In this document: piece by piece, positions 1 to 44,460 of the stretch
Layout: every line of letters begins with the position of its first letter
How positions within the stretch are numbered: position 1 is the first letter of the stretch
NCBI GenBank assembly: GCA_024398075.1
Contig: JAKSJM010000019.1
Span: 1 to 44,460 of the forward strand
Reading direction: 5' to 3'
DNA: 44,460 nucleotides
From: Bacteroidales bacterium
GTDB lineage: Bacteria; Bacteroidota; Bacteroidia; Bacteroidales; UBA932
The notes under the pieces: generated by a model
What the model was told of the DNA's origin: nothing
Seen by the model: only the letters and a program-made list of their open reading frames with translations
Databases searched by the model: none
Made by a program: the position numbers and the translations under genes

Positions 1-62
1 AGGGTCTGGAGGTGTGAATGGCTATTCTCTGCACCCGGCGCATGGCTCAGACGTAGTGCTCA
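1..62. repeat. Edge of a TGCACC-type phased dyad array
   Basis: Bases 11-16 read GGTGTG and bases 30-35 TGCACC, separated by exactly 13 bp. This is the geometry of the array at the other end of the window (GGTGCA-N13-TGCACC, where GGTGTA variants also occur). After 27 further bases the first GACGCA of the left array begins at 63. This short stretch therefore looks like the last unit of a TGCACC-type array joined nearly in phase to the TGCGTC-type array. The window starts here, so its extent to the left is unknown. Confidence 0.6.
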
Positions 63-712
63 GACGCATTTGAATGGGTATTTGCGTCTGCGAACCCACT
101 TATCAGCGTCGCGAGACGCAGGGAGGGGCGCTTTTGCGTCCCGTCGGGCCTTCCGGGCGCTGCTCAGATGCATTTGAATGGGTGTTTGCGTCTGCGAACC
201 CACTTATCAGCGTCGTCAGACGCAAGGAGGGGCGCTTTTGCGTCCCGTCGGGCCTTCCTGGCGGTGCTCAGACGCATTTGAATGGGTATTTGCGTCTGTG
301 AACCCACTGATCAACGTCGCGAGACGCAAGGAGGGGCGCTTTTGCGTCCCGCGGGTCCGTGCGGGCCGTGCTCAGACGCATTTGAGTGGGTGTTTGCATC
401 TGCGAACCCACTTATCAGCGTCGCGAGACGCAGGGAGGGGCGCTTTTGCGTCCCGTCGGGCCTTCCGGGCGCTGCTCAGATGCATTTGAATGGGTGTTTG
501 CGTCTGCGAACCCACTTATCAGCGTCGTCAGACGCAAGGAGGGGCGCTTTTGCGTCCCGTCGGGCCTTCCGGGCGGTGCTCAGACGCATTTGATAGGGTG
601 TTTGCATCTGCGAACCCACTTATCAGCGTCGCGAGACGCAGGGAGGGGCGCGTTTGCGTCCCGAGGGCTCTTTTGGGCCGTGCTCAGACGCATTTGAATG
701 GGTATTTGCGTC
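63..712. repeat. Phased inverted-hexamer array, 52-bp unit in 104-bp dimers
   Basis: Thirteen dyads GACGCA-N14-TGCGTC start at 63, 115, 167 and then every 52 bp to 687. Successive dyads are separated by 26 bp. Two alternating versions of the 26-bp and 14-bp intervals make a 104-bp higher-order repeat (six copies plus a final dyad) with few substitutions between copies. Some hexamers vary by one transition (GATGCA at 167, TGCATC in a few units). Because 104 is not a multiple of 3, every frame stays open for about 312 bp and produces a ladder of overlapping 103-codon ORFs. These have no leader and no family resemblance and are not called as genes. The function is unknown. Confidence 0.9.
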
Positions 713-43390: not shown

Positions 43391-44232
43391 GGTGCAAATG
43401 CGTAGGTGTTTGCACCGCTCACTTATACAGATAGGTGATGGAGGTGCAGCCCGACGCGGTTTGCACCTTATTTCATCTCGTATGAACCCTAGCGGTGCAA
43501 ACGAGCCTTAGCTGCACCTGCGCTGATGCAGGAGTGCAGTCCCGGGTGCAAACGTGCCTGTTCTGCACCTGCGCTGATGCGAGAGTGCGGTCTCAGGTGT
43601 AATCGTGGCTTTTCTGCACCTGCGAAAGTGTGAGAGTGCGGTCTCAGGTGCAATCGCGGCTTTTCTGCACCTGAGCTGATGCGGGAGTGCGGTCTCAGGT
43701 GCAATCGCGGCTCTTCTGCACCTGCGCTGATGCGAGAGTGCGGTCTCAGGTGCAATCGCGGCTCTTCTGCACCTGCGTTGATGCGAGAGTGCGGTCTCAG
43801 GTGCAATCGTGCCTTTTCCGCACCTGCGCTGATGCGAGAGTGTGGTCTCAGGTGCAATCGCGGCTTTTCTGCACCTGCGTTAGCGCGGGTGGGTGGTCTC
43901 AGGTGTAATCGCGGCTTTTCTGCACCTGCGATAGTGTGAGAGTGCGGTCTCAGGTGCAATCGCGGCTTTTCTGCACCTGCGTTAGCGCGGGTGGGTGGTC
44001 TCAGGTGTAATCGCGGCTTTTCTGCACCTGCGTTAGCGCGGGTGGGTGCTCCCAGGTGTAATCGTGGCTTTTCTACACCTGCGCTGATGCGAGAGTGTGC
44101 TCCCAGGTGCAAGTGTGCCTTATCTGCACCTGCTCTGATGCGAGAGTGTGGTCTCAGGTGCAAATGAGCCTTTTCTGCACCTGCGCTGATGTGAGAGTTC
44201 GGTCCCAGGTGCAGATGGCGACAAAGCGCACC
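43391..44232. repeat. Phased inverted-hexamer array, 51-bp unit, TGCACC/GGTGCA type
   Basis: Seventeen dyads GGTGCA-N13-TGCACC, the first with N14. The right hexamer falls at 43411 and every 51 bp to 44227 (the last is CGCACC), with 26 bp between dyads. In the first three dyads the intervening sequences are unrelated to the rest, yet hexamers and spacing are kept. From about 43513 the whole 51-bp unit is well conserved. GGTGTA variants occur in several units. Because 51 is a multiple of 3, a long repetitive minus-strand ORF (43489-44247) stays open. I do not call it a gene, since it is explained by the periodicity. Confidence 0.92.
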
Positions 44233-44370: not shown

Positions 44371-44403
44371 AAAAAAAATCCCGCACAGACAGCTGCGCGG
44401 GAT
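44371..44403 (-). terminator. Minus-strand intrinsic terminator
   Basis: ATCCCGC (44378-44384) and GCGGGAT (44397-44403) form a stem with a 12-nt loop. On the minus strand it is followed by eight U residues. It would end a transcript coming from beyond the right edge of the window. Confidence 0.8.
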
Positions 44404-44410
44404 TATTGTA

Positions 44411-44460
44411 GTTCGTCCAGCACGAACGTACTCTAACGGGTGAAAGTCCCTAAACCGCCC
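44411..44460 (+). other. Possible edge of a group II intron or other mobile element
   Basis: GTTCGT (44411-44416) pairs with ACGAAC (44422-44427). It is followed by GGGTGAAAGTCCC (44438-44450), a stem-loop sequence often seen near the 5' end of bacterial group II introns. The first bases GTTCG differ from the usual GTGYG, and the window ends before any reverse transcriptase could be seen. The end of an insertion element is an alternative. Confidence 0.3.

Follow-up and report, generated by a model that had tools for sequence, protein, structure and literature searches.

Evenly pitched palindrome arrays in an uncultured gut Bacteroidales, some adjoining divergent RAYT-like genes

For subclass 2.6 of the TnpA_REP/RAYT proteins, which comes mostly from Bacteroidetes, the palindromes have been described as atypical, weakly folding and devoid of GT[AG]G (PMC6006769). 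The system reported here resembles this subclass in that a HUH-Y1 gene of the Bacteroidota is flanked by untagged, weakly folding palindromes with copies elsewhere in the genome, a likeness drawn from the description of the subclass. It differs in that the proteins are about 280-313 aa long versus the 179 aa listed for subclass 2.6, in that the Y motif is mostly YxxRN versus YIH[QN]NP, and in that the palindromes here form long arrays of near-constant pitch, of which we found no mention in the account of subclass 2.6 (PMC6006769). BIMEs, as described from E. coli and Stenotrophomonas, consist of REP modules in tandem, in which a REP that has been modified is reported to retain its palindrome through complementary changes (PMC2817692). 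The arrays here are likewise tandem extragenic palindrome modules linked to a rayt gene; however, the REPs of BIMEs are said to alternate in orientation and to be separated by variable lengths (PMC2817692), whereas our units with pitches of 72 and 74 bp run one way and their pitch hardly varies. Finally, the GTAG- and CGTC-tagged REPs are also short palindromic extragenic repeats that often lie downstream of genes, and CGTC families have been reported from Bacteroidetes among other phyla (PMC3733652). Nevertheless, the arrays here lack the GTAG tag, and the CGTC REPs differ from them as described, with loops of 4-5 bp, no dedicated transposase and head-to-tail dimers called negligible (PMC3733652).

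Our searches of the open-licence PMC literature turned up no account of arrays of this kind in Cryptobacteroides. The MIRU-VNTRs of Mycobacterium, intergenic tandem repeats that occur at many loci, are also similar to the arrays here, and we know of no link between them and palindromes or RAYTs. The odd pair of repeats described below leads to a testable system: uncultured Bacteroidales of the gut carry multiple families of palindrome arrays with an even pitch, some of which directly adjoin divergent RAYT-like genes, and the combination of constant pitch with changing sequence offers a way into the long-standing question of how REP arrays are built.

Two arrays at the ends of one contig

The DNA analysed (the window, 44,460 bp) is the entire contig C11 of a Cryptobacteroides-like MAG (2.49 Mb, 71 contigs, 82% complete) and starts at base 1 of that contig. 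In a protein search the closest record was a horse-faeces MAG at 97% identity, followed by records of Candidatus Cryptobacteroides at 72-74%. The array features of the window are as follows.

11-35, + strand: pitch-51-type dyad GGTGTG-N13-TGCACC, the terminal unit of an array truncated by the contig end (sequence; BLAST of window 1-51)
36-62, + strand: 27-bp linker leading in phase from the pitch-51 unit to the pitch-52 array (sequence)
63-712, no strand: pitch-52 array of 13 dyads GACGCA-N14-TGCGTC with two alternating loop types, period 104 (TRF and pattern scan)
43391-44181, no strand: pitch-51 array GGTGCA-N13-TGCACC (TRF and pattern scan)
44208-44232, no strand: degenerate final unit of the right array, GGTGCA ... 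CGCACC (by eye)

TRF placed the left array at 56-722 with a period of 104 (2 x 52) and the right array at 43494-44213 with a period of 51. The right array consists of one dyad with a 14-bp loop (43391-43416) and 15 dyads from 43443 onwards, every step of which is exactly 51. The pattern GGTGYA-N12..15-TGCACC gave 30 forward and 29 reverse matches and GACGCA-N12..15-TGCGTC gave 14 of each, while the backwards controls of both patterns gave 0 and 0. Within the pitch-51 arrays, GGTGCA/TGCACC units alternate with GGTGCG/CGCACC units, and GGTGTA/TACACC occurs in one unit. Comparison with L081, from a 97%-identical relative, showed that array length and unit order are not the same in the two genomes. 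Further to the right, positions 44380-44460 hold a terminator-like hairpin and then, at the contig end, a string that we presume resembles the 5' end of a group II intron and that had no Rfam match at the gathering threshold.

According to the first-pass annotation, a dyad of the right-array type at 11-35 is followed after 27 bp by the first GACGCA. This arrangement is present as described and is in phase: the first GACGCA stands at 63, 52 bp start-to-start from the dyad, which is the pitch of the array downstream, and the arms of the dyad form four Watson-Crick and two G.T pairs. Since positions 1-51 match pitch-51 arrays elsewhere in the genome (BLAST; four places on C2, two on C12 and one each on C4, C33 and C40, with 80-90% identity over 47-51 bp and a best E of 7.8e-13; C2 also has a 26-bp piece with 96% identity), we read the left edge as the tail of one array to which a second is joined in phase. 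The junction of the two pitches occurs once, near the contig end, and a BLAST search with window positions 1-600 returned no second copy in the genome. We think, short of proof, that the junction is real rather than an assembly error, because its two sides have only a 9-bp string in common (by eye). Next to the left array, positions 713-1020 are about 300 bp that are extra relative to L081, where the array end directly joins the gene end; by eye, GCGTC stands at both borders of this stretch, as if it were an insertion with target duplication. One copy of the palindrome GGCCATC-N14-GATGGCC lies at 962-991, and the same palindrome makes up a period-102 array on contig C12 (L046:10941-11175), possibly as a further repeat family.

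When anchored on the arms and oriented by the loop, the loops of the pitch-51 units (AATAGCCATCTTC, AAACGGCCCTCTC) and those of the pitch-52 units (AATACCCATCTCTT, AAAGCGCCCCTCTT) are alike in register, the mean best identity of 21 distinct pitch-52 loops being 9.67/13 versus 6.98 (sd 0.24) after shuffling. Reversed loops also exceeded their shuffles, by less (8.62 versus 7.28, sd 0.23), and the likeness of the loops is therefore partly symmetric. The arms of the two types differ at two positions per side, GT->AC on the left and AC->GT on the right, which is a complementary double change; the covariation that had been proposed between the two hexamer types is thus real. Together, the alike loops and the symmetric change of the arms uphold the assignment of both array types to one family with covarying arms. 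There may be two binding specificities, since this genome carries three RAYT-like genes.

Array families and the constancy of their pitch

Collection of the arrays across the genome, which the same annotation had proposed, revealed the same spacing elsewhere. There are nine pitch-51 GGTG..CACC arrays (C2, C4, C9, the right array of C11, C12, two on C29, C33 and C40) and two pitch-52 GACGCA arrays (the left array of C11, and C17), and the pattern GGTGYR-N13-YRCACC has 79 forward matches in this genome, compared with 0-10 per genome in 60 relatives. A BLAST search with a third array, from C12, uncovered another family with a pitch of 72, CACGACCC-N22-GGGTCGTG, which comprises 96 units at 18 non-redundant loci (18 of 28 loci were kept; seven are places already counted, and three, on C31, C44 and C66, hold partial units and no full unit above threshold). 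Among 61 genomes, the pitch-72 query matched this genome alone. The short palindromes are extragenic repeats in many copies, dispersed between genes. Arrays border gene 3' ends, and of the 20 array-flanking proteins, 14 had a Pfam match, mostly to metabolic or housekeeping families with no common theme; one of the other six (L048:6751-7986) was later recognised as a RAYT-like gene. Since arrays were found at the ends of at least 10 contigs of the MAG (C2, C4, C9, C11, C19, C21, C24, C29, C33 and C43), they probably break assemblies.

A family with a pitch of 74 is present in the relative G016, an 8-contig genome with 76 units at 17 non-redundant loci (17 of 30 loci were kept, the remainder overlapping these); its query matched G016 alone among the 61 genomes. 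In an ungapped unit scan, which favours intact units and in which a shifted neighbour would still appear as a different step, 76 of 78 pitch-72 steps were exactly 72 (the others 73 and 78) and 55 of 59 pitch-74 steps were exactly 74 (the others 173 twice, 526 over masked bases and 1019 over a gene). Mean pairwise identity between units is 0.78 for pitch 72 and 0.67 for pitch 74. Every array of both families (18 and 17 loci, respectively) has all its units in one orientation, and in the pitch-74 family one arm is better conserved than the other. GC skew of G016 was uninformative on the replication polarity of the arrays. Pitches of 51-52 and 72-74 bp would correspond to approximately five and seven helical turns.

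A dyad scan (perfect 6-bp dyads, loops of 4-40, periods to 150, chains of at least three) of the window, eight other stretches of its genome and 80 related loci gave loops of 13/14 bp at a pitch of 51/52 or register variants of these, with one pitch-72 array as the sole exception; the scan included arrays of other species at L089 (TCCTTG/CAAGGA) and L115 (AGGTCC/GGACCT). The same scan found no chain in 40 further stretches, which come from 36 genomes of the same genus and total 629,338 bases. TRF found pitch-51/52 arrays in two of those 40 stretches, L171 and L176 (two arrays in the latter), which retain the pitch and not the 13/14-bp loop, and dyad geometry is therefore not uniform. Over its full scope (2,624,484 bases of 160 loci, plus 368,820 bases), TRF detected three pitch-74 arrays in G016 and one pitch-73 array in L247, and in other species unlike sequences stand at pitches of 51, 52, 73 and 74. 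Tandem repeats with other periods also occur (e.g., 43, 44, 54, 66, 84 and 131, plus coding repeats), so the pitch rule covers dyad arrays and not every repeat; L098, at a contig end, has two identical copies with a period of 72. Neither a pitch-51/52 array nor one with a pitch of 72-74 was present in the 280 kb of G013 that were scanned, and 241,498 bases from 20 genomes of other families of the order, an amount too small for exclusion, contained no tandem repeat with a period of at least 30.

Divergent HUH/Y1 transposase genes

A Pfam search for RAYT in the genome of the window found none, including Y1_Tnp, and this null result is misleading because the RAYT-like genes are too divergent for Pfam. 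Of 61 same-genus genomes, 45 had a Pfam Y1_Tnp match, which exceeded the cut-off in 42, and many of the matches lay in open frames of about 300 aa. The search path led from L340 to L067 and L306, and a profile of these three proteins led to L188, L048 and L092; the three-protein profile also matched L268, which belongs to a different family of the order, though weakly (E 2.2e-4). When the six proteins were aligned, H-x-H, a Tyr and Y-x3-N were invariant in 6/6, a combination that is the catalytic hallmark of Y1 HUH transposases. Five of the six have NCBIfam REP_Tyr_transpos as their best family, with scores of 14-45 bits, so that none passes its cut-off of 80 bits; two (L340 and L067) pass the Pfam Y1_Tnp cut-off of 23 bits, and the L048 protein has no match to REP_Tyr_transpos or Pfam. 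Searched against the PDB, the six-protein profile matched ISDra2 TnpA (2xm3) with E 3.4e-5 and TnpA_REP 4er8 only with E 0.44. The predicted structure of L092 had a pLDDT of 41 and was unusable.

The flanks of all six genes were examined. On contig C29 of the same genome as the window, the gene at L048:7057-7986 sits between two pitch-51 arrays; the gene at L306:2161-3000 in G016 has pitch-74 units on either side, L188 is flanked on both sides by palindromes spaced 51 bp apart, and L092 by one copy of a common palindrome per side. A transposase-like gene with a common palindrome family on both flanks is accordingly found in four genomes, including that of the window, while only one side of L067 (G005) carries an array and L340 has no such palindromes. 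L048 and L306 were sampled for their arrays, and L188, L092 and L340 independently of arrays; two of the latter three are flanked on both sides. The gene of L067 is also where a period-134 array with a GC-rich palindrome begins, at the gene end (L067:1590-1964). No RAYT was seen adjoining pitch-52 or pitch-72 arrays. With the six-protein profile, one member of which comes from the genome of the window, we found three genes in that genome, four in G016, 11 in G011, 15 in G028, two in G018 and none in G013; the numbers in G028 and G011 are far above the expected one gene per repeat family. The other two genes of the genome of the window lie at C5:41961-42818 and C65:6413-7249, on contigs where BLAST placed no pitch-51 or pitch-72 array.

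With regard to the GT[AG]G foot tag, GTAG or GTGG was present within 8 nt of the foot, on either strand, in only 3 of 60 units. The missing tag argues against a canonical REP and not against a REP of an atypical subclass, since subclass 2.6 has been described without it (PMC6006769).

Explanations for the arrays

We consider the arrays to be extragenic repeats of the REP/BIME type that probably serve, or once served, as substrates for a single-stranded DNA transposase of the HUH-Y1 kind resembling RAYT/TnpA_REP, a reading to which, from sequence comparison, we give a probability of roughly 0.7. The REP/BIME context is invoked because a transposase gene stands between two arrays on another contig; where REPs border their tnpA_REP/rayt gene and further copies lie at other places in the genome, as here, the arrangement is called a REPtron. 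The transposase would recognise the folded palindrome on single-stranded DNA, would excise or copy a unit and join it to its siblings, and such joining could seed and lengthen arrays between genes; the units are thus presumably mobilised by the transposase. Changes in the arms would remain complementary because the folded palindrome would be what the transposase reads. As for the near-invariance of the pitch, at about 51-52 or 72-74 bp, we suggest that it is dictated either by the geometry of the transposase-DNA complex or by a host protein bound to helically phased DNA. The arrays are best read as atypical REP/BIME arrays, with a near-constant pitch, a head-to-tail order (pitch 72 and 74) and no GTAG tag. 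The array-flanked transposase genes, the dispersal of copies between genes and the symmetric arm change count for this reading; the scores below the family cut-offs, the weak match to 4er8, the missing tag and the lack of a RAYT next to the pitch-52 and pitch-72 arrays count against it.

The near-invariance of the steps despite unit identities of 0.78 and 0.67, the return of both pitch classes (51-52 and 72-74) in other species whose array sequences are unrelated and the unequal conservation of the pitch-74 arms are also in line with arrays that bind a host protein (gyrase, a nucleoid protein or a regulatory dimer) as double-stranded DNA in helical phase, for which the pitch of about five or seven helical turns would be the functional feature and the transposase neighbours incidental. 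We judge this to be unlikely, since it leaves the array-flanked transposase genes unexplained, requires a new protein specificity for each species and has no identified binding protein; moreover, REP arrays could take on the binding of a host protein as a second function, as with gyrase on BIME-2 of E. coli (PMC2817692). Neutral, satellite-like tandem repeats that arise by slippage or unequal exchange, their arms kept complementary by hairpin-templated correction, would account for the higher-order alternation of unit types and for the different array length and unit order in the window and L081. However, units hardly ever change in length from one to the next, the same pitch recurs in unrelated sequences and transposase genes stand between arrays, all of which makes a neutral origin very unlikely.

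The covarying arms had also been taken as the mark of a functional hairpin or dyad, which, read as an RNA hairpin, was not borne out. Arrays that are transcribed as hairpins and act in RNA (3' UTR stability, termination or small RNAs) would be consistent with the arm covariation and with the position of arrays at gene 3' ends, as well as with the excess of G.T over A.C among non-Watson-Crick arm pairs in one orientation, which was 29:1 for pitch 51 (summed over loop-oriented arrays), 61:11 for pitch 72 and 43:33 for pitch 74, counts of events that are not independent because the units are related. This excess fits a fold on one strand and counts for the REP/BIME reading as well. Against that reading, position 4/35 of the pitch-74 unit is unpaired in 52 of 73 units. 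Several of 12 array pieces folded better than shuffles, yet their z-scores (+0.49 to -5.46) show no consistent strand, RNAalifold predicted hardly any common structure for 73 units of the pitch-74 family (-0.67 kcal/mol for one strand and 0.0 for the other), and the window had no Rfam match at the gathering thresholds. In addition, the array comes after a terminator-like hairpin at L044, L046 and L049 (by eye; the L049 chain was fixed on this hairpin and was left out of all counts), and in tandem gene pairs of G016 the orientation of the array agrees with that of the genes in 3/5 and not in 2/5 (by eye, mechanical ORFs). A role in RNA therefore has, in our estimate, scarcely any likelihood. 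MAFFT misaligned arrays of unlike sequence.

As a tentative and rather doubtful extension of the REP/BIME reading, the arrays might belong to a distinct REP branch that measures pitch. Head-to-tail arrays at five or seven helical turns, whatever the sequence, would then be the work of a RAYT whose C-terminal part is long, or of a host partner, and each transposase would read its own arm hexamer, so that GGTGCA and GACGCA arrays would represent two specificities from one array family.

By eye, a short T-tract motif (e.g., GCCNNTTTTC, CGTTTTCGG) is present in loops or linkers of otherwise unlike families, namely in L089, L171, L176, L188, L281-L307 and L046 and in both arrays of the window.
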